Below are positions 16,301 to 56,833 of a DNA stretch of 64,000 nucleotides, piece after piece (within the stretch, counting starts at the first letter, position 1; every line of letters begins with the position of its first letter). Source of the stretch: Polytrichum commune (taxonomy: Eukaryota > Streptophyta > Polytrichopsida > Polytrichales > Polytrichaceae); NCBI GenBank assembly GCA_950295325.1, contig OX485807.1, forward strand, positions 44,608,440 to 44,672,439, in the 5' to 3' direction. Under the pieces are notes generated by a model that saw only the letters and a list, made by a program, of their open reading frames with translations, was not told the origin of the DNA and did not search any database. Position numbers and translations under genes: made by a program.

Positions 16301-19300
16301 CTGCTTCACCGGAGGCACGGTTGTTGGATTCCGTAACGACTCCCGGAGGTGTGCGGTTACAACCTAGCCGGGAAACAGTTCAAAACTTCCTCACAGGAGC
16401 TGTAAAATTGGATGCAGAAAGACTTGTTCAAGCATTTGAGAACAAGCTATCAGCACACTCATGGCAGGTGTGGCTCCTGGTTTATTCCTTAGTTCTTCTA
16501 TAACTTTGAGCAACTGAAGATTTCTTCAAAACTACGAATTTATGTAGAGAAACAGCTCTTCGAATTTGAGATATCATCTTGAATACCCTTGCAGGGAAAA
16601 GGCTCTGAAGAGAGTTTGAGAAAAAAATTGAGGCTGAACTTTGTTTGTGTACTAGGTTCGCTTGAAAGCCATGTGTATTCTGGAGGCGCTATTACGGCAA
16701 GGTGATAGCAGTGATGTATATCAGAAAGTGGCAATGATGTTTGAAGAAGATTGTGCGACTATTGTTGAGTGCACAAAGTCACCACAGGCTTCATTAAGGG
16801 AGAAATCCAAGAAGGTATGCCATTCTATGCAATTACATGAGTGGATATTATTGTTTTCCTGAATGCATTAGTTAGTCCTGTCTTGATCAAGTTTGAGTAG
16901 CAACCAAGGTTGTGGGAACAACGTGGTGGTTCATGATAAAGTTGATGCTGCTGTAAGTACTTTCAAAATGGTAAAATCTGTGCATATGGTGTAACTTCTA
17001 TGTTTTTTTCAACGATGGTTGGTATCTCAAGTTTAATATAAGAGTCTTCAAAGGTTGTCTAGAATCTCCTTGGAATTTACGGAGCACTGCTAAGGTAAGC
17101 AGTCCTCAAATGGACACTTTTAAGCTCTGCACCCACTTCTTGTAAGATATGAGACATGCAATTAGTGCAAGATGATTGCCAATTCCAAATCATGGCCTTA
17201 GCCATTTTCCTCATGATTTTTATATGAATTTCATCGGAGCTCATACGAATATCTTATTCATTGTCAAAGTGAAGATTCTTGTGGATGTTAAATGGCCATA
17301 TAGGTCCTCCCAAATTATGCTGACTATTGAGCCTAGAATGGTGAACGTATTTTAAGCACGTGATCCAATCTCTTTTATACACATGTCTTTTGTGTCTGTT
17401 CTTACATCCATACCTAACCACACGTCACTCAAATATAGCTGTTTGATTAGAGAAAGTGACCATGAAAGGCCCACTTACCTTGGATTAGGTACCAATTTTT
17501 GGGCTCATTTCCTTTTTATACTACCAAAAAATGAAATTCTTGCCAAATCTGAGTTTGCTCCTCCAACTTATCCGTCAATGGCAGGTGTTGGACTTGCTTG
17601 GAATGGGCAGTTCAGAAGAGGATCAACCTCAAGGAGCGCCAGGTTCAGTCTCTGCTCCTCCACCAGCACCTGTTGTTTTACCTGATCTCATGGATGGTTG
17701 GGATGCATCAGAGGATGCTGATGTACCACAGGTGATTTTCCACAACAATCCTGGTAGGAGTAGTTTTCAGGACTGGTTGCAATATTTTCCTTTTCTCCAG
17801 TAATTTATGCTCAGGATGGCAAGAAGTAGCCCGTTGCAATCTGTTTTCGATGTAAAAAGAATTTCTTTGGCATTCAAGGTTTGGATTGCATTGCATCCCT
17901 TGCCGAGTTGACAAATTATGGTGTATGCAGAGTGCCACTGCAACCTCTGAGCATGAGGCTTTAGCCACTGTCAATGGAGTACCGGCAGATACAGCTGATT
18001 GGCTTCAAGGAGGTTCTCAATGGTCTGACAATAGTACCATGAAAGTAGCAGCCACTACCAAAGATGCTGATCCATTTGGGGATCAGGATTTCTTTACAGG
18101 ACTTGAAACTTCTATCCCCAATGGAACCCAAGATAGTGGAAGCCTCTTTGAAGGCCTGACTGTTGGTGGTGGAGAGGAATCAACAATAACCAGAAAGGCA
18201 CAGGCTCCTATGGACAGCTTGGTAGATTTGTTTGGTGGACTCTCAACAGAGACACCTGCACAATCTAGTGGTGCTTCTGTTGATCCATTTGCGAATGGGA
18301 TGGACAAGTCAAATGTTGCACAGCCTTCAGCTAGTGGAAATGTTTTGAATCAAGGAATTGGATCTGGAAAGGCTAAGTTGAGCCAATCAGGCCTTCCACC
18401 ACAGTCAATGATGTACATGAACCCAGCAGTGCTAATGCAGATGGCCAATGTGTTACCACAAGGCATAAATCCTATGTTGGCACAACAGCAGTTGGCAGCC
18501 AGCATAGCAAACCTCCAAAACCTCCAGAACCTCCAAAGAATGGGAAATTTGGGGTTGAACCTTAGCACTGGAGGCAGCTTTCAAGGAAATGGTACTGGAC
18601 CTGCAAATAACCTCGGCCACATGTATACCGATGGTTTTGATTTTTCTACCACTGCAGCGCCTAGGTATTCAGTGGAAGCGAAAAAGGAAGACACCAAAGC
18701 ATTTGATTTCTTAAAGGTAAATGACACAAACCTGCATTTACACTGAGGATATGTATGGTAGTTAACAGCATAAGGATATGTGTCTCAGCATGTTCCACCA
18801 ATGTGTGTGTGTGTTAGTTTTACTTTGCAATTTACGGGCACTTTAAACTAGAGCTGAGAGCCCATGACCATAGAAATCCAAAATCCTCTCATTGGTGGAA
18901 CATGCTGAGACTGTCACACTTCACTTCACACTAGAGCTTGAGGGCCTAAGTTACCAAGGAAGTTTGAGTTGATGAAAAACCTACATGGATGGAATGGTTG
19001 ATGTTGCATGGTCTACCAGATTTTGTGACAATCCCTCAAGGAGGTGGGTCTAACCAGCACTAGGAGACCCTGACACTTCAAGATGTCACAACCCTTCATT
19101 TATTATAACTTATTGTGTAGAAGGCCCCACAAGAATAGGATGATAAGAAAATAGCGTTTGCTTGAGAGCCAGTTCGTGGATGCCTTAACACTACACTGAG
19201 CACACAAAATTCAATTTCAATCTGTCATGGTAAGGCCTTTGGATGAGTTTCAAGGGCCCTCACAATTTCATGGTCACGGCCTTGGCTATAAAGTAAGTGG

Positions 19301-24268: not shown

Positions 24269-24276
24269 TCTTTGTT
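24269..24276. other. Target-site duplication TCTTTGTT, left copy
   Basis: This 8-bp direct repeat abuts the left terminal CAGGG. An identical copy lies at 40957-40964. Removing the element and one copy restores a continuous target. Confidence 0.88.
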
Positions 24277-24361
24277 CAGGGTTGTCTATTGTGTCGTGAC
24301 GGAGGCTAATCTCGGCATAATGTCGTGCCATCACGACACGTATCTGTCACGACATTATGCC
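24277..24361. repeat. Left terminal inverted repeat and subterminal hairpin
   Basis: TIR CAGGGTTGTCTAT occupies 24277-24289. GTGTCGTGACGGA follows at 24291-24303, with its partial inverse TCACGACAC at 24331-24339. GGCATAATGTCGTG (24314-24327) pairs perfectly with CACGACATTATGCC (24348-24361). Such subterminal repeats are usual transposase binding sites. Confidence 0.85.
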
Positions 24362-24850
24362 GGATGCTGTCTTTATCCTGACGGACTTGAATTTTACTGA
24401 ATTTTGTGTGTAATTACATTACCCCATTTCGGACACGTAGGATGTAACACTATATTCGTTAATCGGAGACTTTTGAAAGTCTCAAAATAAAATATGCCCA
24501 TAGTTTGGGATGCCAATATTGTGGGCATATGGAATGTTGGGAACATCAAGAACATGACAATTTAAAAATTCGCACGTAAAGAATATTCCTAATACTAAAA
24601 ATATAAAATTGCAATTATAATGAAAACGTGAACTCCATGTGGAAAATAACAAGCGAATATAAAAAACAAATGGTTTATGTCATTATAGAGTTTGGGGTGC
24701 GCATCCCATAAGTAAGGTTCTTATGGTTTTGGATGGCACATCCCAAACGTATACCACAATGGAGTGTGACAAGTCTACTAAGTCTATTAAAAACCAAGAC
24801 TACTAAGTACTAATGTTTTTTCCCGCCGTTAACTTTCACCTATGTTATGT

Positions 24851-27800
24851 TTACCCATCTCCATCTTCCGCTTCATATCCATTCTCGGCGTCATTTTCCG
24901 CAGCTGCAATACGTGCCAAGTTGTCTTTGGCAAAATCTATATGTTTTTGGGGGATGGTCATTGCTTCTGTGTTGGAACCTTTGCGCGGCTTCCAAGCACA
25001 AAGTATAGTATCCGTGTTTATCCAAACCGGTGTGTACGCTGAGTCCACTGTCCACTTAAAATTCTTTTTGGTGTCCCAACCTAAATAAGTGCGGAGCACG
25101 TTGTGGTCTTTAGTGCTTGGACGACAATATTCCACCTCAATTTGACGAAAGTTGGGGCTAGTTCGAACAAAATTGGGTGAAGACAATGCTTTTACCAACC
25201 AAATTGGCTTGGGATGCTCCTCATCCCCAGCTCGTACGAGGACCAAATACCCTTCATGGCAATCAACACCTACACGAAACGACGGTGCCGGTCGATTGCG
25301 GGCAGGGCCAACGTAATGCTCGTCCATTGCGAACTCTTCACGAACGTCTCCATTGCTGAAAAACATAGTATCGGACTCGACAACCGTCAAACGACTTTGT
25401 GGCCAAAATCCTTGTGTCAAAGTCGTACGGGTGTCGCCACCAAGTGTCATCAAGGCTGAGCGAATGCGATCCCAATACGCGATCAACGGTTCATGGGTAT
25501 CTCTAACACGTCTTGTGATGTCCTCCTCGCACAACTCTTTCCAATATTCAATGAATCCGGATATGCCTTTGATGATTTCCGGCCCATTCCTCATGGGTTC
25601 GGGTTTGCAAGGCTTTGGTTCCCCATCCGGGACCAAACATTTCCCATCATTGTCTTGACGCCATACGAGTATACCATCATCCGGGCCCCAATTAGGAGAT
25701 GTGCACAAAAGCTTGAATTGCATGGCCGGGAGACCATCGTCCCTCATATAAAATCGGAATTGTTGTGCTTTGGTATGCCCCACCAAACGGTCCCCTCCCT
25801 TCAACATGTATGGCTTGATGAAGGCCTTGAAATTTGGTACTTCCTCAATCAAGTGCGGAATTACTGGCATATGGTCCAAATCCATATACGATTTCATAAG
25901 AAGAGGTATGGTTGGAAAATCTTCTTCATGCAACTTCATGCTCCACCGTCCGAATGATGCATCAATGTCGTCGTGTGTATGTCCCACCATCAAGAAAGAC
26001 ACAAACACCTCCTTGAAGATTCCTTTCGCCACGAGCAATGACCAAAAACAAAATACGTATCGACATTTGTTGTCCTTCGCACAATTATCAAGTTGAACGT
26101 GGAGAGTTGGAGGCAATGGTTTTGCACAAATGGGCTCTCCGGGTGGTTCTGGCAATGACGACATACAAACCTCCTTTCCCAAAAGCACTGCCTCATAAAG
26201 GGATGTGGTTCCACAACCATCAAAAAGTGCACGGGAAGAATGTACCGGTGGCTTCTCAAGATCGCGCAACAGTTTTGCAAATGAACCCACCGTGTGGTTA
26301 GCATCCCCAGGGTAAAAATCCAAACCATAATGGGCATACTTTACGTCCCCATGGCCGTGGGCAATCATACCTGGAAAAAAGAAACGATGCGTGACCAAAA
26401 TAATCAAATAACCACTAAACGGATGTATGGAGTTGGACATTTGCCAAACACACCCAAGAAAATTGGATAGACTTTAAACACGTAGTTGTGATTTCATACA
26501 AACCTGTGACAGCTACGGGCAACTTGAAGAGACCATCCGTGGCCTTTATTTTGCGTGCATAACAAGGGCATGCGGTCTTGGCGTGGTCCATTTTATCATG
26601 GATGACTGTTAGAACCTCTGTGGGCCTCATTATGGATAGAGCACGATTCTTATAATAATCTTGACGGTGTGCCTCTTGATTGTTGACATGTTCAATATAT
26701 TTTTTCTGGTGTCTGGAATGAGATTCAGTGCCTATGGGGTGGGCGTCTCGAAGACCTTTGTATTTTTCACACGTCGTACATCTAGCGAACTTGTCCCCGG
26801 GTCTTTTCAGAATGTATTCCGCAAACTGCTGGTTTTTAATCACACTCAACTTGGACAAAGAAATGGGCCCACATCCCGCTATGCGACCCACTTCATTGAT
26901 GTCCGTTAAGATGTTCTTCCATTTTGTGCCCGTGGGCAACACCATTTGAACAACCTTCTCCCCTGACGACAATGTCCTCGTCTTGTGGGGCATTGCATCG
27001 GCCAATGGCACTATGATGGTGGATAGTGTCGCGGACGCTTGCAGTGTAGCCTCCCTAGGTTTCTTTGTGCCCGAGTTGCCATGAAATCGAGAGCGGCGAC
27101 CCAACGATGAATATTTTCGAAACCTATAAAAGTCAGCCTTGGAGACGGCGTGGATGGTATACCACGCTGTACAACACACATCAACATTCTCAAGTGTCAC
27201 CACCTTATGCCCATGGGTATCAAGGTGCAAATTTCTGTGGACCTCGAGTTTCTTAGCCGACCTCATACGAAAATCCGCAAGCCACATCTCTTGACGCAGA
27301 GATCTAATTTTCTCCCGCGGGAAAAATTGGCAACATTTCCTCGCGCAACAATCCTTGCCGGACACTAGACGGATAGATTCGTCCCCCAAAAGCCGATCCC
27401 GTCGACGCTCCTTATCTCCGCGAGGCACACGGTTTGAATCATATCTACGGAGGCCTTTGCGAGGACGTGTTGTGGCCAACAAAGCTAATTGTGTTTGCTT
27501 ATGCCGCCGCTCATGATCCCACAAACTCACTTCCTCATGTAGAACTCGACGAAGCGGCCATCGACGCAAGGAAAATCTCCATGTCACCGGGAACTCTACC
27601 GGAAGCAAAGAGTTCAAGATGCACACGCCAACATCATCGAGACCTAGGGCGTTGGCATCGACACAATCACGGGGATTGGAGTTTCTACATATACCATCTG
27701 CCACCGGGACACCAACCTCGTTGAGTAGAACGACATCAAGGCCAACCCATTGCTCCCTCCCGAAACCGGCACACAACGGAATGTCATCGTGGTCATCTCC

Positions 27801-27980
27801 GGAATGCAGAGATTGTTCGTGGACTTCCAAAGATTCATGGGAGGATGTATCCACAAACACCCCCCTCACGTTTGGCACACCATTACTATCTGCCGACGGG
27901 GAAGACAGTTCACATTCAGCATCGGATGACGATGCATACGTCGACAACTCCAATGAACTATCACCCACATGCAACGCCAT
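24851..27980 (-). CDS. Putative RNase-H-fold transposase of the giant element
   Basis: The gene has two exons: 27980-26504 and 26370-24851. The 133-bp intron starts GTTTGT and ends TTTTTCCAG. The joined frame is 999 codons (998 aa). I chose MALHVGD because the ORF upstream of it looks untranslated. Zinc-ligand candidates are CCARKCC (211-217), Cys270 and CTTC (401-404). HDKMDHAK (461-468), VQLDN (583-587) and GHTHDDID (621-628) are spaced like the acidic positions of an RNase-H/DDE core. I recognise this arrangement as a recurrent uncharacterised plant/algal mobile-element protein (DUF7869-like). The catalytic assignment is inference. It lies divergent to the ParB-like gene and its 3' end faces the left TIR. 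No frameshifts were seen, so it may be intact. Confidence 0.75.
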
Positions 27981-28204
27981 ACAGCCTAGACCAACCACCA
28001 GGACATGATCAACCCAACCACCACCGCAATGCATACAAGAGAGGATAGAATATATGTGGAGATAAATGGCCCAAAATTGACAAACAAATTTTGGTGCACC
28101 ATTGGAGAACCTCACGCACAAAGACGAACGCGCGTCCCAAAAAAACGTTTTAAGCATACGTCTAGGTTGTTCACTAATGTAAACAATACATGGACAAAGA
28201 GGAG

Positions 28205-28670
28205 AACACTCGTTAGTCGTCCAGGAGGGCCCTGCTGTTCGGACCAGCGCCTGTCCACATACAACCGACGACGAAATCAGAAATCCGAGAACGCCACATG
28301 CATTTACGAACGCGCGTTCGTGACCTCAGTAACTTCTCCATGTACATCCGGCGGCCTTCGAGATCCCTCAAATGAGAGCACCCTGAGGAATATCGGTTTT
28401 GTAGGTCAAAGTACCATGTTGACTTAGGAACCTGCGCGATATACTATCACAAGAGAACACTTGTCCATACGCACAAAATTAGCAAATCTGCAGATGATGC
28501 CTGAATCAACTCCAACAATATTTTGAACACTGAGCACCTCCATATTGTGAATTTGATTATGTTGACTTTTGCGTACCTACCCATTTACGAACGGACGTTC
28601 GTAAATGGGTGCGACCCCGTGTTCACATCCTTCACGGACGAGCGATGAGCATATTTTTCTTGCTATTCTG
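28205..28670 (+). pseudogene. Decayed copy of the exon 3 end and intron 3 of the ParB-like/HAD gene
   Basis: The segment runs parallel to 37590-38170. Matches in order include AGGAGGGCCCTGCTGTTCGG versus AGGAGGGACCTGCTGCTCGG, GACCAGCGCC versus GTCCAGCGCC, a palindrome at the same place, GTTTTGTAGG, ACTTAGGAA versus CCTTAGGAA, ATACTATCACAAGAGAA versus GACTATCACGTGAGAA, GATTATGTTGACTTTTGCGTA versus GATTATGTTGATTCTTGCATA, a second palindrome, and GAGCATATTTTTCTTGC versus GAGCACATTTTCCTTGC. It has the same orientation as the intact gene. It marks an internal duplication or a second, mostly lost gene copy. Confidence 0.75.
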
Positions 28671-28746
28671 TGTTCGTAAATTACTGCCATACTGATGTGC
28701 ATGAATGAAGATGTGTTGCTGGATACGTAGACAATAATGACATGTA

Positions 28747-29303
28747 TTTACGAACGAACGTTCGTAAATTCCCGACCATCAGATAACAATAGATACGGGT
28801 CAAATAAGTATGTATGATCCTCGAAGGCATATTTACGAACGCACGTTCGTAAATGACTGTCATGGATTAAGTGCATGTGACTAACCATATGAGTACCTCA
28901 ATCCAGAACATGCTCTCATGTGGGATTTACGAACGCACGTTCGTAAATTACCGACCAACAGGTACCAATAGACAAGGGTCAAATATGTATGTATGAAACT
29001 CGAAGGCATATTTACGAACGCACGTTCGTAAATAAATGCCATGGATGATGTGCATGTGACTATCCATGAGTAGCTCAATCCAAAACATGATCTCCTGTGG
29101 GATTTACGAACGCACGTTCGTAAATTACCGACCATCAGGTACCAATAGATAAGGGTCAAATATGTCTGCATGGTCCTCGAAGGCATATTTACGAACGCAC
29201 GTTCGTAAATAACTGAGATGGATTACGTGCATGTGACTATCCATATGAGTAGCCCAATCCAGAACATGCTCTCATGTGGAATTTACGAACGCGCGTTCGT
29301 AAA
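28747..29303. repeat. Tandem ~178-bp units, each with two palindromes
   Basis: Palindromes at 28747, 28926, 29103 and 29282 form one series (spacings 179, 177, 179). Those at 28832, 29011 and 29188 form another (179, 177). The DNA between them repeats too (CTCGAAGGCATA, CATGGATNANGTGCATGTGACT, ATGTGGGATTT, TTACCGACCANCAGGTACCAATAG). About three units are present. Confidence 0.85.
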
Positions 29304-29910
29304 TCCTTGCCATGTCCAGGTCCGAATCGTTTGTCTAAACCTGAAGCTCTTCATCTTTACGAACGTGCGTTCGTAAAGTTCCGGTATTTACGGCGGTATA
29401 TGCGGTAGGTACAGCCTGTACTGTACCTGGGTGGTGTAGGGTTGGCGCACACGAAATGGCTTGAGCGCGTTCGGTGAGGTCTGTAGAGCGCACACTTGCA
29501 TGTGCCGCTGAAAAGAGCTTTGTTGTGGGGGGAAGAGCTTTAAGTACTTCACCCCGCTGGTTCAAAATCCCTTGGATGCTTTTTAAAAAGCAGATTCCCG
29601 CCGCCTTCTTTGACCTAACAATCTTCCATTCCATCCATGCGGAATTATATAAATAGCATTGTCATGTATGGAACATGCCTTGCATGCACGCCAACATATT
29701 GAAAATATATAAATCGGTTGCACACCTTAGTTGTGACCAAGGTCTCATCGAAATATATGTATATACGTATATATATATATATATATATACACATAATGTC
29801 TAAATATGGAGATGGTTAACATTGAATATTTAATGATTTGCGACTAAGGTATGAAGTCCAAGTTAATTGACAATTGATGCCTAATAAAGTTATGAATGTC
29901 GAAGTCATAG

Positions 29911-29951
<41 letters not shown>

Positions 29952-30933
29952 CAATGAGGTCAGAGTGGCTAAAAAACATGTTGCGGACGCCCCTAAAATT
30001 ATAGGTATCATATGTTTCACATCAAAAAATGACCGTAATATGGTCACCAAGTGCATGAATACAACTAAAAAATCGGGTTAATCCATAATGGCTTGCACTA
30101 GGGTAGATTGAGGACACTATGAACTAATTATACCTAATAATATATGTAAGTTAGGTCTTCTTTCAAATGGTATCTAGGTGTGAAAATAAGGAATTAAAAT
30201 GGCATGAGTAGGAAGGATTAATCAATTTGTAATGCTGCATAGTATGATAGCGTAATGATCATTGAGACTTGAAACCATACTAGCTACCGTAACGTTGAAT
30301 CATAGTTACAATTATTATGTGTTTGACGTCCTATTGGAAATTGAATTTTCGTCCACTTGTTGTAAGGGTACGGATACACATTGGTTAAATGTTTATTAGA
30401 TCATTGGTGATATTTATAGTTGAATGCATTGTTCGATTGTTAGTTTAAGTTGACACATGATTAAATGAGTTGAGGTCCTATTGGAAATAGACTTTTAGGG
30501 TTTGGGGAAATGCACTATTAATTTGGAATGGTGCATACAATAGTATGTACTTACAATTAATATATGTTTTGCATCCTATGAGAAGGATGTGCATCATCAT
30601 AGCTTAAAGTGTTGATATAAATTGAAGTCTTAAGACATGCATGTTATTATAATAAGATCGTGGATTGTGTGATGAAATTTCACTCAGAACTATTAAGGTG
30701 AAAGTGGGAATATTTGAAATTTCACTTATCACTTAAACCAAAGTTTTATCTCAAATCTATTAATTTGGAATGTGAAATTGACAATTGCCATCATTATCAA
30801 TTATTATAGTTGTTATGAACGGAATTAAGCATTCTCCATCCAACCAACATTGGTAGACCAATTTGACCTGCCCTCAGAAAACAACATGGCCACATATAAG
30901 AAAGGTTGGTAAGATAAAAAGATGCAGGGATGT

Positions 30934-31012
30934 AGGGTTTAGGGTTTGCGGTTAGGGTTTAGGGTAAGGGTTTGGGGGTAGGGTTTAGGGGTTTAGGGTT
31001 TGTGAAAGTTGT
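30934..31012. repeat. Interstitial telomere-like repeats (TTTAGGG variants)
   Basis: GGGTTTAGGG, GGTTAGGGTTTAGGG, TAAGGGTTTGGGGG and TAGGGTTTAGGGGTTTAGGG occur in direct succession. TTTAGGG is the canonical telomere unit of most plants. The copies here are mixed with variants. Confidence 0.8.
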
Positions 31013-31889
31013 GTATGTGGTATTTGGGTTTAGGTTTTAGATTGTTACTAGGATACATTACACACACAAACAATATTGACTCCTCAAAAACCCTTGTAAT
31101 TGCATTAACTTCATTCATCGCAAGCTCGTAGTTGATGCTAGCAAAATAGTTGACCACTCCAGAAATGCATTAGTTCAAGCTAACACCTAATATTAGAACT
31201 TGAATTGACATCCTATCGTATAGCAACTCTGCGCAATCTCATATTATTATGAATTCTTTTTTGCATGTAATATTTATTTGAGGAACCATCGAATTAATTG
31301 AAAGATATCTAGCTCTTACATAAACTATATTTTAAAACACCATATATATATCTTTGGGGGTGGATTCTACATTGACAACCTAGGGAGTGACATGCATTGT
31401 TTATTACGAATTAACTGAGCATATTTTCCTAAAATATGTTTACAAGGAATCCAAATGTAGAGGTACTAAGGAAATAAAACGAGTAAAATTCATGTATTTG
31501 AACTAAGCTTGTCAAGTTAATGCCTTAAACGCGTCCATTACATATAAATATGTCAAAGCATGAGAATAACATGAAGGGTTCCAATATACAACCATCTCCC
31601 ATCTCCCATCGCATCCCATCCCATCCCATCCCTTCCCATCACCTCCCATACCATCCCATCCCATCTCTCTCCCAACCCTAGCCAGTGGAGTTGTGCCACG
31701 TGGCAGGTGCTGGGAAACCCTAGCGGCGCACCTACCTCCCCGCGCCCCTTCCTCTTCTCCTCATTTGTCATTTCGAGGAGAGGAGGAGCGGAGCGTTTAG
31801 AGAGCGAAGCTCTTGCTTTTTTTAGTCTTGAAGTTTTAAATTAGTTTTGTTGCAAGTTTTGAGAGATTTCAGATTGAGAGCTTGTGTGA

Positions 31890-32170
31890 AAGCTTTTGAG
31901 TTTGTGAAAGCTTTCATTGTGAAAGCTTGTGAGTTTGTGAAAGCTTTCAGTGTGAGAGTTTGTGAGTTTCAAAAGCTTGAGAGCTTGAGTAGGAAAGCTT
32001 CAGAGTTTCGGATTGAGAGCTTGAGGGTGATCTTTAGAAGCTTGAGAGTTTAAGGAAGCTTGAGAGTTGAAGCTTGAGAGTTTAAGGAAGCTTCAGAAGT
32101 GAAGCTTGAGAGTTTAGGGAAGCTTCAGAAGTGAAGCTTGAGAGTTTAGGGAAGCTTGAGAGTTTAGGGT
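31890..32170. repeat. Degenerate GAAGCTTGAGAGTTTAGG tandem repeats
   Basis: AAGCTTGAGAGTTTAGGGAAG and relatives (AAAGCTTTCAGTGTGAGAG, AGAAGCTTGAGAG) repeat for about 280 bp with 15-35-bp periods. A pyrimidine-rich, leader-like stretch follows. Possibly part of an LTR or a transcribed leader, but no matching second LTR was seen. Confidence 0.6.
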
Positions 32171-33342
32171 TTGCTTAAGAGTTCAGAAGCTTGAGAGCTA
32201 CAAGGTTGTGAGTTTTGTGTACATAGGAGTATACTAGGGTTTGTATATAAGCTGTGAAGGCTTGAGGTCTGCATTAGAGAGTTATCTGAGTGTGCATTTG
32301 AAAGGCAATTGAGTGTGCAGTTGTGAGGATTTCTGGGATTTTCAGAAAGAGAAGAAGCAGGGATTGCAGTGTGCAGCATTTCAATGTAATTTGTTATCCT
32401 TTCCAACTCCTCTCACATTCTGAAAATGTTGCTTCTTGAATTCAATTTCTTTTGTTACATGCAATGTGAACTATCACTCTTTTCTTCATGTTTCATTCTG
32501 CATCTCATTCTGCATCTCAATTGCTTTATGATTGAAGAATTGCATCATTCTGACCAAAATTTTGCAGGCACGGCTGCAAGCAGAGTAGCTAATAAGTGAG
32601 TTATATACATATACGTATATATACGTATTCGTATATACACGAATACATATATGTACGGACAGGGGATCCCAAAACCATCACATATACGAACGCTCGTTCG
32701 TAAATGGACATACACTGCATACCCACCTCCATTTACGAACGCTCGTTCGTAAATGGACATACACTACATACCGAACCTCCATTTACGAACGTGCGTTCGT
32801 AAATACGCACTCCACGTTCTTTGAGATGATCTATATTTACGAACGCACGTTCGTAAATATACTCAAAATATCACTCAGAAGGAACCTTAACTTAAATATG
32901 AACCTCTATGAATATCTAAAGAACAAATACAATTTTGCGAACACCAATAAGACAAATCACATGTACTTACGAAAGATAAATCAACCAAATATCCGAAAAG
33001 ATAGACCAAATGGACATACTTACGAACGCACGTTCGTAAATGAATCCAAACCTATAAAACCTATATCTTTTACGAACGATCGTTCGTAAAAATAACCAAA
33101 TATATTACAAACACATTCATGACGAGTAGTCTCTTTGATCTTCATATCTTTTACGAACGCTCGTTCGTAAACTCAATACTAAAAATTTATATGATCTTGC
33201 AACCCCTCATTTACGAGCGAACGTTCGTAAATATAATTACATCAATTGCAAAGACGCATTAACACTGCGTAGTCTGTGGGATATGCATGTCACTTACGAA
33301 CGTTCGTTCGTAAAGTCACTAATTGTTTATATTCTGTTGCAG

Positions 33343-36300
33343 ATGGCAAGATCAAGCAGAAGCGCCATTGAGATGTTCGCGGTGAAGGTCGATGGCCTCC
33401 CAGAGTCGGTGTTAGACGATAACGGCAACGACAACTATGTCCCCAAGGAAGACTTCATGGGGGAGTGGACGGCACTGCCAGAGAAGATCGGGGACGGCCT
33501 CTTCTGCATGCGCTTCACCTACGAGCTGGAGACAAGACCGGACCAGCCCGAACAGTGGGTTCAAATGAAGACGTGGGAGATAGAGTCCATAGAGGCCCAG
33601 GGGGAGTATGTAATTCTGGACATGAAGAACAAGAAGGATCATATCAACCTCTTGTTACATTTTCAGAAAAATACCTTCTCCTACCAATACGCCACCAATA
33701 ACGTAGCGGAAGATGCCAAGCACTTCGACCTGGACGGCCTCTTCTCCAAATATGCGTTGAGCCCATACTGGACTGCAAGGAAATTGAACGCCCTGGCATT
33801 GAACATCTCCAAATACAACAGTGTGGTCACTGAGGCAAACAAGAAGAAGAAGAGCCCCAGGAAACCATCCACATCAGGGGCAGGAGGATCTAGAAGTGCA
33901 CCCAGGCCTGTGCCTTCCGCTAGCAGGGCGACGGAGGGCCCCAGTAGACACTCCACGCCATCGAAGAGGACAAGGGAGGAGATGGAGAAATCGGGAGTAA
34001 CGGAGACCGCAGAGGTGACCTCGCCTGTCGTAATGCCCACCCCCTTGAAAAAGGGTGAGAACCCTGACGCTGTGAAGGCCACGAGGATCCTTCGAGACTT
34101 CAACAACTACTCGAAGGATTGCTGGCCCATGGGACGCCACTTCACATTCAACGTGGACTGCTTCAAGTGCGAGATGTCCCCCAACAAATGGGTGGTTCGC
34201 TCTCGCGAAAGCGGTGGTGTGAAGTGGCAGATAAATAATCTAATGAACAACGTCAAGTGGGACAGGCAGACCGTCTGCGTCATGCCGAAGGGGCTGACAT
34301 CCCGTCCGACGGAGAAGGACTGGCCACGGATCCAGAATGGAGAGTTCTGGATCATAGACGGCCAACACAGCTTGGAGGCGTCCCAAATAATTCTCAAGGA
34401 CGACAACTTCCAGCATGAGCTGAAGGAGGACTTGCGCTACTGGAAGGCGTTCTTGGTGTGGTCAGACGATTGGGACAAGCTACGGAAGATATCCACCTTC
34501 CTCAACTCCGGCAACAAAATCAAGGCCTTCGAGGCGTCGTGGGCAGCCAACATAGTGGCTGCAAGGGACGTCTGGGTCGCCCACGGGTGCCCCCCTAAAG
34601 AAAGGGAGAACGCGAAGACGCCGTCTCCACAATGGAAGGTGAGTTTACGAACGAACGTTCGTAAATATCTTTGACATTCAAATTTTCAAGTTCTTTGACA
34701 TTCAAACTTACGAACGTGCGTTCGTATTTTGTGCGTTACTGATGTTTTTCTTGCTGCAGGCATTCTGCGACGCGATGGTGGACAAGTTCTCCTCCATCGA
34801 CATGAAGTCTACAACAACCAAGTCTGTCCTGGAGCTCAAGGGTGAGCTCCGCCTCATCTGTTGCAACAGGGACACTTGGGAGTTGTGGACACAATTTTTT
34901 GATGCGCACAGCTCGGGCGATCTGGTCAACCCCGACACCGAGGAGAAGTACAGCGCGGAGAAGACCGGGGAGGCCCCTCCACTACTGAGGGAGTTCTTCA
35001 GGTCCCTTCAAGGGTTAACAGAGTCCGAGTTGCAGAGGTGCGCGGTGCATCTTCTTGGGAACACTGTGGGAAGAACCATCCCATACCCGAAGATATTTTT
35101 GAAGAGGCCAAGACACAAGCCCGGCACGTATTCCATCAAGGAATGGTGCGAACACCGCAAGCTGAAGACTGCTGCAATGAGGGAGTTGAGCGCCCTAATA
35201 CCAGAGTACGCACTCATCCTAGCCGACGGGGACATTAATTGGGCCAGCTGGAAGATGTTCAAGGTCGACTACAACATCTCCGGACCCTCAATGCGTTGTC
35301 TTGTCAAGGAGCACGCCTCCATTTTGAAGCAGAAGGGGAACAAGAGGACAAAGAAAACCGAGACGGATCCCCAAGAGGTGGAGCAATACAGAAGCTTTTT
35401 GACGCGGAAGAGGTTGGCCACATTCGAAGGAGTGGCCAGATTTTGTCTGTTGACAAAAGGAGTGGAGAGGGTGACATTTTCCAAGTGGGACCGGACCATG
35501 AGCAGGGCCGAGGTGAGGGAGGATCGACGGGGGTGCCCATTTGCCCTGATCGATTTCAGGGGGATCCCCGGTGCGTCGAGGCAGGGGGGGAAGGACATAC
35601 CTTTCTACGACCCCTTCATGGCCAAGTTCAAGGAGCACAAGTCTCCGGACATGAGGGAGCCTCACGTTTGGCTGTGGATAGTCGAGCAGGAGAAGCTCTC
35701 TGCTGTAGTCGACCTGTACGAGAAGTCGATCAAATTTGAGTACAGCATCTTCCACAGCACTTACGTGCCCGCCAAGACGGAAGGGATCGTGGCCATCAAC
35801 GAGGCCAGGGGGAACAAACAGGTGGGGGCGGTCAGCCTCGTCTTCTTGACGTACAACGCGCTGCGGAATGGGCGAGCCCCTGTCAAGGCGAACACTACGT
35901 TCAAGAAGATCTACAGCATCCCCCATCCCCCTCCCAAGGATCTGCTGCAGGAGACCTTGTACACTATCTTCCCGGCGATGGAACTCAGGTTGGAGTTCTA
36001 CGTCTCCGTTTTGCAGAGCGTGGCAATAAGCGGAGAGACCGTGTACAACGTTTGTGGCGGCAGCAAGTTCATGTACGCTGCGATGGTAAGCTCTCCAACT
36101 AATATTTACGAACGCTCGTTCGTAAAGTTCACCTCAACTTGTCTTGGGTTTGATGACATTGTTTCTCGTCGTTGATGTTTACGAACGCACGTTCGTATTT
36201 TCTAACGTATTTGCTTGAATCTCAGATGCTGGGGCTGGTCGTCAACAGCTTCATTGAAGCCATCGACGAGGAGGACTTCCACGTGCACAGGGCGAAGGCC

Positions 36301-39045
36301 TCCACGATGGACCTGGAGGACATGTCCCTCCCGAAGACGGACATCAACATGCCCGTCGACGAAGGCATGCCCGCCATGGAGACGGACGACGACGAGCCCG
36401 CGCCCTCCTACAACGTCGAGGCGATCCTCCGATCCTTGGACGTCACTCCTCTCCGCATTTTGGCGCCGTCGGGAAATCCATCCGACGTGCAAGGGACTCC
36501 GGGTGGATACACGGGGTCGTCGGCGGGGACAACCCAAGATGTCCTCCCCGCGAGAACGTCTGGAGCGGAGGCATTCGGCACTCCCGGGGGATGCTCGACA
36601 TCCGTGTCGCCCAGGCCGATCGTGGTTCCCAAGATGGAGAACCTCGACCTTCTGGACCAACGGTCCCGACCGACGTTGGACCAGTACCGCAACACGAGGC
36701 GGAGGATGAAGAAGACCCCCTACGTGGAGCTGCCTCCGGGGGCAATCATCGAGGTCTCCGATGAGGACGAGGGCGACATGGAGATCATGGTCGAGCTGGG
36801 GGTAGACTTCGACAAGAACAAGCGGGTCAAGGAGGAGGCGTTGTCCGTCGCCGAGCTTAACGCCAAGCTCGAGCAAAAGATGAAGGAGGACATGGCGAAG
36901 GCGGCAGAGGAGAATGCCAAGAAAATGTTCGCAATTCAGGAGGAGCTGAGGCAGTCCAACGAGAAGACGGACGCCATCCTCGCCATGCTCCAGCGTATGC
37001 AGAGCTTCTCGGCGCCCCCCCAGCCGGCCTACCCCTTCCCTGGAGGATACCCCTCCCAATCCCCTCCACCGGGCATGTTCACCGGAGGGCCTTCCCGCCA
37101 GCAGGCGCCCCACCCCACGCCTGTTGGCACTCCTCCGCCACCAGAGGTTCCCTCGACCACCTCCCACGATGCTGTGGCGGCGGCCATCCAGGAGGACGAG
37201 GATTTACGAACGCGCGTTCGTGAATCTTCAGGTCCTCCAGTCCTCACCCCTCCCCCTTCAAGGGTAGGACTGCCCTCATACACCGATGCATCGTCTTTCA
37301 CCGTCGTCCCCAGGGTAGTAGACAGACATGGCGATGACTCTGCGCGACACACTGACATGGTCATTGTGGAGGACACGCATGGGAGCCCCAATGACGCACC
37401 AGGGGTGCATGGGATGGACGTGGAAGAAACCCATGCGGCGTGGATGGAGGATGTCAGGATGGACGCGCTCGACCTGGGCGCCGAGGAAGAAGACGCGCTG
37501 CGCATCCAGGCGACACAGGCCTCTCAACCGGAGCGTGAGGCAGAGGCCATGGAGACAGAGGCGGCTGCAGCTGTGGAGGTTACGAACGCGCGTTCGTTAA
37601 TCGTTGAGGAGGGACCTGCTGCTCGGTCCAGCGCCGCTACCCCTCCCCCCGATGACGAGGTAACTCTCCTCTGAGAATACCATTTTTTAACGAACGCGCG
37701 TTCGTAACCTCTCTAACATCGCGATGTTTTTATCTTCATCGACATCCAGTGGCCTTGCGAGAGCCCTCTTCAGCGGTCCCCCTTAGGGCCGAACAGTTTT
37801 GTAGGACACGGCATCATTTTGCCTTAGGAAAATGTGATAGACTATCACGTGAGAAATGTAAATATTCAACGGATTAATATATGAGCCTATGTTATCTGCA
37901 TCGCGTTGCTTCAAATTCTCTGCCCTCGACCCCTTCTCGTATGTTGTATATGTTGATGAGATTATGTTGATTCTTGCATACCCACCTCATTCGCGAACGC
38001 TCGTTCGTGAAAGGCTGCGACCCACTGTCCACCTCATTCGCGAACGACCGCTCGTAAATGTACGTGTAGCCGCGCTCACGAACGAGCGCTCGTAAATGAT
38101 GCGCACCGCCCCCGCAGCCTTCATTCACGAACGCTCGTTCGCAAGTGTGCCCTTGAGCACATTTTCCTTGCACTCTCCTCACTTCCTCGTCTTTCCCCAT
38201 AATGCACCGTCTTCATTTTCTACGCAAAATTTCATTATTGGATCATAGAATTAAACTAGTCGCGTTGTTCATCACAGGACCCCCCGGAGATTGGTCGCAA
38301 CCCCTCTACCAGTGGACCTCCCACCCGGAACAAACCTTTCATCGTTTTTGACCTCAACGGGGTGTTGTGTCACACCCAACACATCCCAAGGGTCCCCACG
38401 CGTCCCTTCCGTCACCCCGACGAAAGGGACTACGACGGCGAGCTCGACACCCTCATTAACCGCAAGGCTGTCCGCGCCCGTCCCGGCTTGCGTGACTTCC
38501 TTCGCGAGGTGGTCGAGTTCGCTCACGTCATTGTGTGGAGCTCCATGGTCATGGAGAACACCGAGCCCATCGTGCACTTCTTGTTCCGCGATCTCCCGAG
38601 CCCTTGCCTCGTCCTCGGCCAAGAGGACTGCGACGAGCTGCTCGACGAGAAAGGTCAACCGGTGCCCAAGTTTGGCGGTCGGGGCGGAGGACAACAGTTC
38701 CTCAAGGTCCTCCGCTCGAGACTCTGGCGAGGCGTCCCCCGTCTGCAAGGGACGCCGCACGGGTGGTGGCCGACTCCAGAGAACACCGTCCTCATCGACG
38801 ACAGCCCCACCAAGAGCGTCTTGAACCCCCCGGGCAACGTCATCTTCCCGGACACTTGGACCGGCGATAGGCAAGACACATTTTTGGTCGATAGGCTAGC
38901 CCCCTACCTTAGAAGGCTCGTGCTCCACGCCGGTAGCATCCCATTTTTTGTTAGGTCCAACCCCTTCGGCAATGCGGCGCTAAGCCCCCGCGATAATGTA
39001 TTCAAGAGCATCATGAGGCTCGCCAAACTCAATAAATTGATTTGA
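33343..39045 (+). CDS. Element cargo: ParB/DGQHR-like N-terminus fused to FCP1/HAD phosphatase-like C-terminus
   Basis: The exons are 33343-34638, 34760-36085, 36226-37659 and 38278-39045, all joined in phase 0: 4824 nt, 1607 aa. DGQHSLEAS at residues 339-347 resembles the ParB/DGQHR nucleotide-binding motif (R changed to S), followed by ISTFLNSGNKIKAFEASW. Residues 433-874 match no family I know. 875-1352 is acidic and Pro-rich, with a SUMO-interaction-like IIEVSDEDEGD (~1048-1058) and a coiled coil (~1081-1134). The C-terminus has HAD/FCP1 motifs: FDLNGVLCHT (nucleophile Asp1377, second Asp replaced by Asn1379), VIVWSSM and VLIDDSP. GC-rich codon use differs from the host genes. A CAG directly precedes the first ATG, so a leader intron is possible. 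Function is unknown. If intron 3 is retained, the protein ends at 37674 without the HAD domain. Confidence 0.72.
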
Positions 39046-39249
39046 AATGCCTCCATGTCTTTGCTTGTATCATGTGGTTCACATTTACTAATGCTTGCTT
39101 CGTTTTTGGATGTCTTTTGTTGTTGTGATTGTTGTTGTTGTTGTTCTTGCCCATAGTCTGCCCCCATATGCGACGCCCCTGTGGTCGACGGCCCTTCCCG
39201 TCTCCTCTCGCCCCCTGCCTCCCCTTCCCGCGACGTCACGGGCTTCCAA

Positions 39250-40157
39250 ATGCCATCCCTCTACCAGTTCTCGGCGGTCGACGCGGCCTCGGCCGTGGAT
39301 TACTCCCGCGACGTCGGCATCGACGACGGCGTCGTCAACAGCCCGCCCCCACCACTTGTCGCCCGCGCCTACGCCCCGTCGCCCTCCCCCCTCTCCAAGG
39401 AGAAACGGACGCTCGTTCGTTTGGGACACCTCTCGCCCTCGAGGGACGACGCCGTCGCTCGTCGCGGGCCGAGCCGGCGTCTCCGCATGGAAGGCCCCCG
39501 TTGCCACACCTCCCCCGCCGACTCCGTTCCTCCCCCCGCAACGTCCTCCGCGATCGTGGGCCCTCCACGCCTCGACTCCCCCCCGCCATCCAACATAATT
39601 GCAATAGTTCCATCGGCTCCGGATGCTCCCGTCGACGCCCCCCTCGTTCCCACCGTTCCCCGCATGGACGTCCCCAAAGCCAAGGTGCCCTCCTCAACCC
39701 TGAACCCCTTTCTCGCTTTTGCTTTCCTTGTCTTCCGTTTGCGTGCCGTTCTCTTTACGAGCGCCCATCCCAAACCGCCCTCATTATTTTCCCCACTCCA
39801 TTCCTATTCTTATCTTCCTATGACGTTGTTTCGCAGGTGGTTACCCGCTCGCTTGGTGCCCGGCCCTCCTCCACGTCCTCCTTGGATAGGCACGCCCTCA
39901 AGGCCGCATCTTCCGAGTCCGATCGTTGTCTGGCCCTCTGGAGAAGCGCAAGACGTTCCCTTTCGCAAACACCCTCGCATTCTACTTATAATACCACCTC
40001 TTACAATTCGGGAGCGCGTCCTAAAACATGCAAGAACGACACATATTCCTGTCCAGGCAACACACAAGGATACAGTCGTGGGCCTGAGATTTTTAGAGCC
40101 ATGGAGGCCGCCAAAAAAAAGGGCTTAGCCGCAAAAAAAAATAATGGGTCGGACTAG
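39250..40157 (+). CDS. Possible Pro-rich protein gene at the right end of the element
   Basis: The likely exons are 39250-39684 (donor AAG-GTGCCC) and 39837-40157 (acceptor TTTCGCAG), phase 0, giving 251 aa from MPSLYQFSA. The exon may begin at an acceptor at 39156 (CTTGCCCATAG). The sequence is Pro/Ser/Ala-rich and ends EIFRAMEAAKKKGLAAKK, a basic tail. There is no recognisable domain. A degenerate palindrome at 39402-39423 lies in the coding frame. It could be a separate gene or a 3' alternative exon set of the preceding gene, whose last exon ends at 39045. High GC leaves other frames open, so the frame choice is tentative. Confidence 0.35.
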
Positions 40158-40609
40158 TGTGACGTCTAGAAGCGTACTAGTGGGACGGACTCCCTAAATG
40201 GGCTTAGGTGTAGAACATATTTAAGTGCTTACTTTCTATGCTATTCCAAGTTACTCAAGACATTGATGGTATTTCCATTATAATTGTATTTCAATCCCAA
40301 TTAATTCATTCAACTTCCATTCATTCTTCGCACCTTCCCTTCCATTCATAACGAGTTGTGATTTCATACGCAACTATTTTCATGTATGCCTCACATTTTT
40401 GTTCACTTCCATGCCTTTATGTATAATAATAGTAGCATACCATTATACATATGGAATTTTTAGTCGTCATTACTGGTCCAATTTTGAAAGGTGCATCCTT
40501 ATATAGTCTCATAATCAACAAAAAGTCTCCAAATACCGAATATAGTGTTATGTAAGATGTCCACGTGTGATGACATGTCAGCAAAGTAGAGGTAAAGTGG
40601 GGGAAAAAT

Positions 40610-40700
40610 TACTAGCCCCCGTCCGCCCCCCCGTCCGCCCCCTTCCCACCCTTTTCCCCCCCACCCCCCCGCACCCCCGTCTGCCCCCGTCCGCCCCACA
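40610..40700. repeat. C-rich CCCCGTCCGCC minisatellite near the right end
   Basis: CCCCGTCCGCCCCCCCGTCC and CCCCCGTCTGCCCCCGTCCG repeat within about 90 bp. The complement strand is G-rich enough for quadruplex formation. Confidence 0.7.
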
Positions 40701-40894
40701 CACTCCTTAGTCATATTTTACTACTTTGATTTTAACAGAATGATAACAGAATGGCAAAATGGTTTACCTAGCGCTAGGCATATCCACGTCCACGTCGGCC
40801 TTTTCTGCCACATAGGACGCCACCTTGGCAAGAAGGTAAGTATTTTACCCACCCTACTAGCTGCCCCCTAGGTTGACCCTACGTGGACCCTATT

Positions 40895-40956
40895 GTGTCG
40901 TGACGGAGGGGTCCGTCACGACACGACACGTCATGACGTCGGGATAGACAACCCTG
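40895..40956. repeat. Right subterminal hairpin and terminal inverted repeat
   Basis: GTGTCGTGACGGA (40895-40907), a GGGG loop, and TCCGTCACGACAC (40912-40924) form a perfect 13-bp stem. The TIR ATAGACAACCCTG occupies 40944-40956. The stem sequence is the same GTGTCGTGACGGA found next to the left TIR. Confidence 0.85.
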
Positions 40957-40964
40957 TCTTTGTT
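40957..40964. other. Target-site duplication TCTTTGTT, right copy
   Basis: This 8-bp direct repeat abuts the right terminal CCCTG and is identical to 24269-24276. Confidence 0.88.
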
Positions 40965-44135: not shown

Positions 44136-46887
44136 CTACACCGATTCGCTCACAACTGTCAGATTGTTCCAAGATTCAACAGTTTTGCAATGTGACTCAT
44201 TGAAACTTGTCATATTTGAAATATTCTTACCCGCTTTGTATAGCATTTGAAAGCCAGTCGCTTCGTTGTATGGGCTGCTCCCACCGAAGCTTGTGAAGCG
44301 TACCAAAGCTTCAGCACCTTCAATGTGCAGTTGGAGGGGTTTGTCTAAACCCTGCTCGGAGATGGAGGTTTTGAGTACCCATTGGGGGGTGGCGGCGACG
44401 TTGAGAAATGGTGCATAAGCCTGAACCTCGTAAACGTCAATGTGATCTAGTCTGTCGAACCCAGTAGCAACACTGGTGAATGTGAGGCTCAAGTTTTTGG
44501 CATTTGCCACCGAGATTGTCCAGCCGCAATTTTCACCTGGAGCGTATCGCTGTTGGCCTTTACCGTCTACAAACACTCCGACTTGAATGTGTCCTGTGGG
44601 CGACGTCAAGTTTACGTGCCCAGTACATGTGTCTGCAATATATGCAATTCCAGCACTTACAGTCACACATCAACTTACTTCCACCTAACGGATGATTAAG
44701 AAAATTACATAGGGACTGGATACTGGATTTCAGTGTTGGGACCGGTGGATCGTATAATTTCTGAATCCAACACCTTATTCTCAATCAGATTGCAAGCAGA
44801 TACTACCCGTTTTTTCTCTATATGTAGCAGACTAACCATTCAAGGCCACCCGAGGATACAAAAGTTCAAATTCACATTCCCAACCTGGGTTAGTCCTTAA
44901 CAATTATGTCCGAGGGGAAATTGCGAGGCACCATCAAGTCCGGATCACATCCCCACAGTTTAAAAAACGGAATTAAAACAATACAACTTTGTCTCGACTC
45001 TGTCATTCTCATTGATGAGAAACACGGTATAAAGGACGGCTGACATTAGAGAGACTATAGATTGGCGAAACGTCAAAGGCTCATTATTAACATATTCTTT
45101 AGGTGATCATCACATGGTCAAATTGTCTCCTGAGACGTGAGCAAGACTTCAGGTCGATGTATCCTAGAGAATGATAACCACTCACTACAATATATATATA
45201 CAACCACTGATACAAATGACATGGAGCCATGGGGTTCTTCCCAAGATCGAGTCCTCACCTTGAGCTTGGAGTTGGCAACTCTTGGTCTGCCGGCTCCACA
45301 TCTGCTGCACCAGGAAGCGCGACCCATTGACGCCGAAGAGGTTGAAGGTTTTGCCGCTCTTCTCGTTCTCCAACACCTGGGTGGTCCACGGGAAACTCCC
45401 GCACACAGTCGAGTTACTCAACTCGCCATACACGTCGGGCATCCCGCAGTACTGGTAGTCGCCGGGCCCGAACACATAGTTGCACAAGTCACCGTTCTCC
45501 GAGGCCCCCGACTTCGCCAGCCAGCCGGTCTCATAGTAAGGGTCCGTCGCGGCTTCCGCGAGCTCGTGCATCAAGATGCTCACTGTGTAATCCAGCGTGC
45601 CGTCTGGGCAGACCTCTGCGTTCGGGGGAGTGCCCAAAATGTTTTGGCCGGTGTATGGGTTGATGAAGGGGGAGCAGGGGAGGCCGGTCAAGGAGGGCTG
45701 CTCAACGACGGCCATGTTGAGGTCTTGGGCAAAGTGGAATCCGCAAGCAAGAACCCCACCCACAGTGACGTCGTTGGAGGTGAAGAGGACGAAGAAGTTG
45801 CTGAGTGCTCTAGGGTTCGCGACATTCAGAATCTCCGCAGCTGAGGTGAAGATTGATATGAACTCAGCGTCGACGGCGGTGAGGTTTGTCCCCAACCAGT
45901 GGTGATTGTGCACTTCGCCGCCGATGCTCACCGAGTCGCTCACTGCACAAACAAAATGCGTTACAACATGTTCGACAAATTACTCAACATAATTTCATTT
46001 TGGTTTCCTCAAATACATACTATATAGGTCGATCTACATTAACAAACGGTCGTTGATGTCCTCCAAACCAAAAGACGACGCCCTGGGTACGCAACTCACA
46101 TGTTATTACACGTAGGTGTCCTCGACAATAAAGCTTATTACTGGTTGGGTTTGTTTAATAATTAGATTCATAAAACACAAACAAAAAGTTTCAGGCGTAT
46201 TCCCTTCCGGCATATTCTATTAGAAACAAAACTCTGGTAAGTCTTCGATGTTGACTGCTTTATGAACAGAGTAACAAACTATAACACATCTTCAATGCTG
46301 CATCATTAGAATGCAATAGAAACGGTAATCAAAATGTGGACTAGCATGCGATGTTGATGGATTATGTGCAGATCGCTTGCGAACCCACTCGTCATCGATC
46401 GATCAAACGGGTGACTGAGTCATGCAGAAGAGGAGGACTCACCATGGGGCCCGTGCGGGGGGTTGGACTGGTAGGCGGTGACGATCTTCCACCAGTTGGC
46501 GAGGTTGGGATACCGGTCGATGGGATGGGCGGGGGTGAGGGAGTGGATGGCAGTTCGCACCACCGCCTTGTAGCTCTCTGGCCACGTACCATACCAGATG
46601 AGATACAGCTTGATGGGGTCCGACATCACCACCCCGCCAGTGCTGATCTTGATGTTCACCACGGGGGGCCTCACCGGCGGCATGCGAATGAGTACAGTGG
46701 AGTCCAGGCTCTCGGTGCCCGGGTGGGCTGAGATCGTGCCGTCGGGGACTGACACCATTCTCGACGCATAAACTTCGCCCACATTATAGGTGGCAGCGAT
46801 CAGCGCCACATAACCCGCTAGTGCTAGCTTGAGGAGCATTGTGGTGTTCGCGGGACGACGCATCGTTCTGGTGCTCGACTGCATCAT
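44136..46887 (-). CDS. EXORDIUM/PHI-1-like secreted protein with C-terminal CUB-like domain
   Basis: The exons are 46887-46443, 45942-45259 and 44632-44136: 1626 nt, 541 aa, both introns in phase 1. A signal peptide (MLLKLALAGYVALIAATYN, after 16 extra residues if the first ATG is used) precedes the EXO domain: IKLYLIWYGTW, AVVRTAIHSL, ILMHELAEAATDPY and ENGDLCNYVFGPGDYQYCG. EXO proteins are apoplastic and linked to cell expansion and brassinosteroid or phosphate responses. HELAEA near residues 273-278 resembles a metal-binding motif. Exon 3 adds ~165 residues (GENCGWTISV, LSLTFTSV, DHIDVYEV, ALVRFTSFGGSS, GFQMLY) with the order of a CUB domain. Ordinary EXO proteins are ~310 aa and lack this, so the fusion is unusual. 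Confidence 0.85.
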
Positions 46888-46979
46888 GGAATCAGCTCAA
46901 AGAATCTGTACATGTCCCCAAAACAAAACAACAAAAAAGTCAAGCCCGGTGTTGTATGGTTATCTTGAAGTGCTAGTCT

Positions 46980-56689: not shown

Positions 56690-56833
56690 TGTTGATCGTT
56701 CCCAAAACACCACGCTCGAGAATTACAACCAGGATCGGAGGTTTAATCAATCCCCCACCAACGTGCTCAATTATACCATCAAGCGCCTACGCTCGCATTC
56801 CCACCTCTACGTCAGCTTTACCTACCCCGACTT

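Follow-up and report, generated by a model that had tools for sequence, protein, structure and literature searches.

Thirty copies of a palindrome and a gene for a predicted ParB-fold protein in a transposon nested within a hAT element of Polytrichum commune

Several mobile elements encode proteins that act on the element's own DNA. VANC proteins are described as binding element-specific motifs, both intronic and intergenic, within the element that encodes them, causing loss of methylation (PMC5735166). For ParB-like proteins of algal transposons, binding and modification of the encoding element has been proposed, with no binding site named in excerpts of that account; among them, Sola1 of Ectocarpus (Sola1-1_Ec32, 21.5 kb) carries the gene for a ParB-like protein on the strand opposite its transposase, and the product, which joins a ParB-like part to a methyltransferase, is presumed to bind the element it comes from (PMC12477816). 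Sola2 elements are reported with AT-rich 4-bp target site duplications (TSDs; e.g. ATAT), terminal inverted repeats (TIRs) of 12-21 bp and an 888-aa transposase (PMC3627910). In bacteria, the ParB-type protein VirB is loaded onto DNA at palindromes and opposes silencing by H-NS (PMC10770331). Here we describe a 64,000-nt stretch of the Polytrichum commune genome (assembly GCA_950295325.1, contig OX485807.1, 44,608,440-44,672,439 of the forward strand; herein the window), in which a 16,104-bp transposon interrupts a small hAT element, carries a DUF7869 gene and a large cargo gene, and holds thirty copies of the palindrome TTTACGAACGNNCGTTCGTAAA. Whether these are, as a whole, two nested DNA transposons of which the inner one marks its own DNA through a ParB-fold protein at parS-like sites is, in our estimate, evenly balanced.

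A transposon inside a small hAT element

A first-pass annotation had read positions 24277-40956 as one 16.7-kb element of a new class with exact 13-bp ends and 8-bp TSDs. Its ends were borne out: the TIR CAGGGTTGTCTAT is exact at 24277-24289, with an inverted copy at 40944-40956, and among the eight pairs in the window that combine an exact 13-bp TIR with an 8-bp TSD it is the only one without (TA)n stretches, which occur in the other seven. The subterminal motif GTGTCGTGACGGA and the hairpins noted at both ends were likewise found, the motif at 24291 and 40895 and inverted at 40912, with a perfect hairpin with 13-bp arms on the right (40895-40924) and an 18-nt inverted repeat, 94% complementary, on the left. 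The features of the two elements are as follows.

24269..24276: left TSD of the outer hAT element, 8 bp, TCTTTGTT, exact
24277..24445, plus strand: left part of the non-autonomous hAT element, with TIR (24277-24289), subterminal motif and inverted repeat; its last bases, 24442-24445, are the inner element's target
24442..24445: left TSD of the inner element, ATGT, 4 bp
24446..40549: inner transposon (16,104 bp), bounded by separate TIRs and a 4-bp TSD
24446..24458, plus strand: left inner TIR, 13 bp, AACACTATATTCG, within an imperfect 30-nt repeat (90%)
40537..40549, minus strand: right inner TIR, 13 bp
40550..40553: right TSD of the inner element, ATGT, 4 bp
40550..40956, plus strand: right part of the same hAT element, with TIR (40944-40956) and hairpin (40895-40924)
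40957..40964: right TSD of the outer hAT element, 8 bp, TCTTTGTT, exact

The genome that contains the window (407.8 Mb in 64 contigs) was searched for copies of the same family. The TIR 13-mer occurs 494 times forward and 515 times in reverse, against 0 and 1 for the reversed control. By eye, 29 plus/minus end pairs were picked among the 100 places listed first, all of them on contig C1, a sample that leaves out one 30.4-kb pair; nine are large (10.8-18.4 kb) and twenty small (0.5-1.8 kb). An exact 8-bp TSD of their own flanks 25 of the 29 (7/9 large, spanning 12.6-18.4 kb, and 18/20 small); two of the remaining four have one or two mismatches and two have no TSD. A survey of the six longest frames of each large pair found a frame of ∼1,080 aa in six of the nine (12.9-18.4 kb) and in two pieces in a seventh. 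Because the large relatives hold this frame, and the single one scanned matches DUF659 (E 3e-35) and Dimer_Tnp_hAT (E 9e-10), the end family belongs to hAT; neither a new class of element nor a new superfamily based on the 8-bp-TSD ends survives this result. Large gene-carrying members of the family do exist, as had been claimed, but the window member is itself non-autonomous, with a length of ∼572 bp without its insertion.

The nesting is seen directly in uninterrupted paralogues. Small hAT copies align to positions 1-171 and 16274-16680 of the window element as one continuous stretch with a six-base overlap; their junction reads GGATGTAAGATGTCC in 8 of the 11 copies printed, with differences of a few bases in the other three, and the window has GGATGT-AACACTATATTCG ... 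CGAATATAGTGTT-ATGTAAGATGTCC in its place. A 30-nt inverted repeat of 90% identity lies exactly at this junction. A second inner copy, on contig C1, has identical 13-bp ends with ATAT on either side. The window copy alone matches up to 6 bp at the TSD (ATGTAA), and lengths of 2, 5 or 6 bp fit it but fail for both copies together; the two copies on which ends and TSD rest both fit a 4-bp TSD (ATGT, ATAT) and ends of AACACTA...TAGTGTT. The inner element is therefore 24446-40549, and the outer hAT ∼572 bp. It is almost certain that a small hAT element was interrupted by a 16,104-bp transposon with these ends, a second nested transposon that the first-pass annotation had missed; the transposase-like gene and GC-rich frames it had reported are present and belong to this 16.1-kb insertion, and its single 16.7-kb element falls away in the face of the uninterrupted paralogues and the second copy.

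The second inner copy (L050, L051, L056) matches the window copy at 96.9% identity across 12.1 kb and at 92.2% across 4.0 kb. It is split in exon 3 of the cargo gene by a hAT insertion whose TSD is CTCGCGGG; the split-site flanks are CTCGCGGG and its reverse complement, and the two halves lie ∼166 kb apart in opposite orientation, as would result from inversion between hAT copies or from misassembly. This split accounts for the TSD mismatch of one sampled pair (E2520); another (E24625) has the same end type at both sides and is probably not a true element. Other observations on the hAT family are a C-rich minisatellite with a unit of ∼10 bp in the right hAT part (40615-40697), additional long repetitive frames, proline/arginine- or glycine-rich, beside the transposase in large members L010-L027, and a series of end pairs at C1:21.864-21.972 Mb that repeats three times in the same order with similar spacings, which suggests a tandem segmental duplication.

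Two genes and a repeated palindrome

The inner element holds two predicted genes, transcribed from opposite strands, and most palindromes lie in the non-coding DNA of or beside them.

24851..26370, minus strand: DUF7869 gene, predicted exon 2 (PF25273, E 4e-40)
26371-26503, minus strand: DUF7869 gene, predicted intron, palindrome-free
26504..28034, minus strand: DUF7869 gene, predicted exon 1, with two candidate start codons (28034 or 27980)
28303..29377: palindrome cluster upstream of the DUF7869 gene, 10 palindromes, partly in a 179-bp tandem repeat (28746-29304)
32597..33342, plus strand: cargo gene, predicted intron of the 5′ untranslated region (UTR), 9 palindromes; 49-bp tandem repeat at 32681-32804
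33343..34638, plus strand: cargo gene, stretch between the 5′ UTR intron and intron 1
34639..34759, plus strand: cargo intron 1, predicted; palindromes at 34644 and 34707
34760..36085, plus strand: cargo exon 2, without NCBIfam match
36086..36225, plus strand: cargo intron 2, predicted; palindromes at 36105 and 36178
36226..37659, plus strand: cargo exon 3; in-frame palindromes at 37203 and 37579
37660..38277, plus strand: cargo intron 3, predicted; palindromes at 37687, 37990, 38037, 38075 and 38124
38278..39045, plus strand: cargo exon 4, NIF/FCP1-like phosphatase domain (PF03031, E 3e-16)

The DUF7869 protein has an integrase-like fold, as judged from the model of a homologue, with the RNase-H-like catalytic core of DDE/D enzymes; fold and conservation make it very probably the element's DDE/D transposase, and on the same grounds the inner element is reasonably likely to be Sola-like. 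DUF7869 goes unmentioned in the open-licence PMC papers searched, and this unnamed Pfam family now gains defined ends and a TSD, from two copies. Two other roles were rejected. As the transposase of the 8-bp-TSD ends it is contradicted by the 29 hAT pairs, none of which matches the protein, or the cargo exons, at E 1e-4. A KDZ/Zisupton transposase, also considered, was dropped on the length of the TSD, 4 bp in the inner element and given as 8 bp for KDZ/Zisupton (PMC12730594).

The cargo gene would encode a 1,607-aa protein with a ParB-like fold and the NIF/FCP1-like domain. It has the ParB/Srx fold; the GERRxR nucleotide-binding motif of ParB CTPases, as defined in PMC12207404, is absent, its place taken by G-Q-H/Y-S/T in 24 of 24 aligned rows. 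Exon 1 is left unnamed by Pfam, NCBIfam and PDB sequence searches, DUF6551 giving a weak match in 7 of 24 members (best E 0.012), and exons 2 and 3 have no Pfam or NCBIfam match exceeding the curated cut-off. A query with residues 1-880 found no relative of comparable length, and scans of viral and genome contigs found no relatives. To the right of the gene, at 39129-40157, lie GC-rich open frames of 323-342 aa without a family match.

The palindrome, TTTACGAACG-NN-CGTTCGTAAA, occurs 30 times at up to 5/20 mismatches, always within the inner element; at that threshold it is absent from the other 47.9 kb of the window, and with one mismatch allowed it is absent from all 29 hAT pairs. The exact core was found 25 times against 0.00006 expected from base composition, and a search for the core at up to 2/14 mismatches gave 31 hits in the window and 30 (23 + 7) in the second inner copy. 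Eighteen of the thirty fall in the four predicted introns of the cargo gene (1,625 bp together) and ten in the 1.4 kb that precede the DUF7869 gene; the 7,875 bp of coding exons hold two, so that 28/30 are in predicted non-coding DNA. Some sit within tandem repeats, with units of 179 bp and 49 bp. All 30 copies keep the inner CGNNCG and the four CpGs intact, NN being variable, and the ratio of observed to expected CpG, 0.50 and 0.63 in the host flanks and 0.48 in the palindrome-free non-coding middle of the element, reaches 1.56 in palindrome-bearing non-coding DNA and 0.9 there once the palindromes are taken out. Four viral contigs have a single palindrome apiece, taken as chance, no calculation having been made.

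Relatives of the cargo protein appear to preserve the palindrome in the same position. Many predicted exon 1 relatives extend past the exon end, where their final residues apparently reflect the intron. Among 24 such tails, 22 were of sufficient length; 17 could encode the palindrome in some frame, compared with 0.2% of shuffled tails and nowhere in a coding-sequence control of 10,469 residues. ACGAACG-NN-CGTTCGT fits 12 of 13 close relatives, the exception having H for R in the palindrome, and in eight close relatives two palindromes fit, with starts 48-64 nt apart. In a divergent clade (the ∼45% clade), ACGGACG-NN-CGTCCGT, with a single base altered per side, fits five of seven tails, in which the residues from exon end to palindrome all differ and the palindrome is constant; neither version fits the tails of the two most distant relatives. 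Through codon ambiguity, one site in 9/12 close fits is also compatible with the changed version, and 9/12 hold at least one site suited to the original version alone. On the 24-row tree, with 12 + 4 rows labelled by version and 8 unlabelled, the two versions need one change, with support of 100/100. Palindrome and cargo protein family changed together in the divergent clade.

What the palindromes may be for

We propose that the DUF7869 protein would move the inner element by cut and paste, and that the palindrome, placed near both genes and in the cargo introns, would be the DNA site of a dimeric protein, for which the ParB-fold protein with its NIF/FCP1-like phosphatase domain would be the best candidate reader. 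Once bound, and perhaps spreading, that protein would keep its own element open or transcribed, in the manner of VANC at VANDAL elements and of VirB in opposing H-NS. These steps differ in strength. The palindromes are probably protein-binding sites; that the ParB-fold protein reads them is credible at slightly less than an even chance; and anti-silencing or activation is a possible purpose, somewhat weaker again. A full ParB-parS-like self-recognition, with nucleation at ∼30 element-specific palindromes, spreading, transcription and freedom from silencing maintained through a phosphatase domain of the polymerase type, and co-evolution of protein and palindrome between subfamilies, is put forward tentatively.

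The palindromes might instead be sites for the transposase or for a host transcription factor, serving as promoter, enhancer or regulator of the transposase independently of the ParB-fold protein. CACTA and other elements carry repeated internal binding motifs, and here clusters of palindromes precede the transposase gene and occupy the cargo gene's 5′ intron. Transposase sites would be expected toward the ends, however, so it counts against them that the first 3.8 kb and last 2.4 kb of the inner element are palindrome-free, save for a decayed core at 39405. The joint change of motif and cargo family in one clade is not what a conserved host factor would predict, although a transposase changing in step with the palindrome remains compatible with it. 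We consider this explanation unlikely, if the best of the alternatives.

Slightly less likely still is that the palindromes act as RNA, pairing at intron ends to loop out the intron and define or regulate splicing, as in introners; those of Amoebophrya are described with inverted repeats at both intron ends (PMC7789003). One finding does weigh against protein binding here: introns 1 and 2 can fold through their own two palindromes (z -2.07 and -3.19), the minimum-energy fold pairing the 5′ with the 3′ palindrome, which 6 and 1 of 200 shuffles equal. Together with the paired palindromes in the eight tails, this foldability keeps some probability for a splicing role. Against it, ten copies precede the DUF7869 gene, whose own intron lacks them, two fall within coding exons, and the distance from palindrome to exon end varies between clades. 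Moreover, intron-end pairing requires inverted repeats, not self-palindromes with an invariant CG-NN-CG, and a 2-nt loop is impossible in RNA, the computed fold giving 4. Rfam has no match in the window.

That the 16.7-kb interval is a single composite hAT with captured genes and no inner transposon is highly improbable: its hAT ends and 8-bp TSD are intact and the family includes members as long as 12.6-18.4 kb whose TSDs are exact, but the empty paralogues are continuous precisely at the 30-nt inverted repeat pair, the second copy has identical inner ends with different flanks and its own 4-bp TSD, and 0/29 hAT pairs match the DUF7869 or cargo proteins.

Farther along the window are host genes: a Phi_1 gene at 45185-46896, which we take to be EXORDIUM-like, with an adjoining stretch (44136-44669) that weakly matches CUB, and a gene at 55313-56722 with three lipid-transfer (LTP_2) stretches.

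Comparison with described systems

The outer element shares with the hAT superfamily an 8-bp TSD, a short TIR beginning CAGGG, and relatives with DUF659 and the hAT dimerisation domain; it differs in having no hAT transposase and in being interrupted, and its six relatives with the full-length frame are long. The inner element resembles Sola1 and Sola2 in its short TIRs and AT-rich 4-bp TSD (ATAT and ATGT, in two copies), a likeness drawn from published descriptions and not from Sola transposase sequences. In contrast to Ectocarpus Sola1, its ParB-like protein is joined to a NIF phosphatase domain and not to a DNA methyltransferase, and dispersed palindromes are unmentioned in excerpts of the two Sola accounts (PMC3627910, PMC12477816).

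With ParB-parS and VirB-virS (PMC10770331) it has in common a ParB-like fold and palindromic sites; it differs in lacking GERRxR, in being a eukaryotic transposon and in the two free bases in the middle of the palindrome. CTP use and spreading belong to the bacterial systems, the likeness here being one of fold and of palindromic sites. Because the sequence itself shows a candidate binding site, thirty times over, and the divergent clade has a second version of it, a transposon's recognition of self versus host DNA could be tested directly using a single protein and two short palindromes.

The motif arrays of VANDAL elements in Arabidopsis run in the same orientation, whereas the motif here is palindromic, and the two are likened by description, with binding here a proposal. 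As in VANC-VANDAL, an element-encoded protein goes together with short motifs that cluster in introns and intergenic DNA, are multiplied by tandem repeats and are subfamily-specific (PMC5735166); the dispersed, element-specific and non-coding motifs of that system have their counterpart in the 28 of 30 palindromes that lie outside the predicted coding exons of the inner element.

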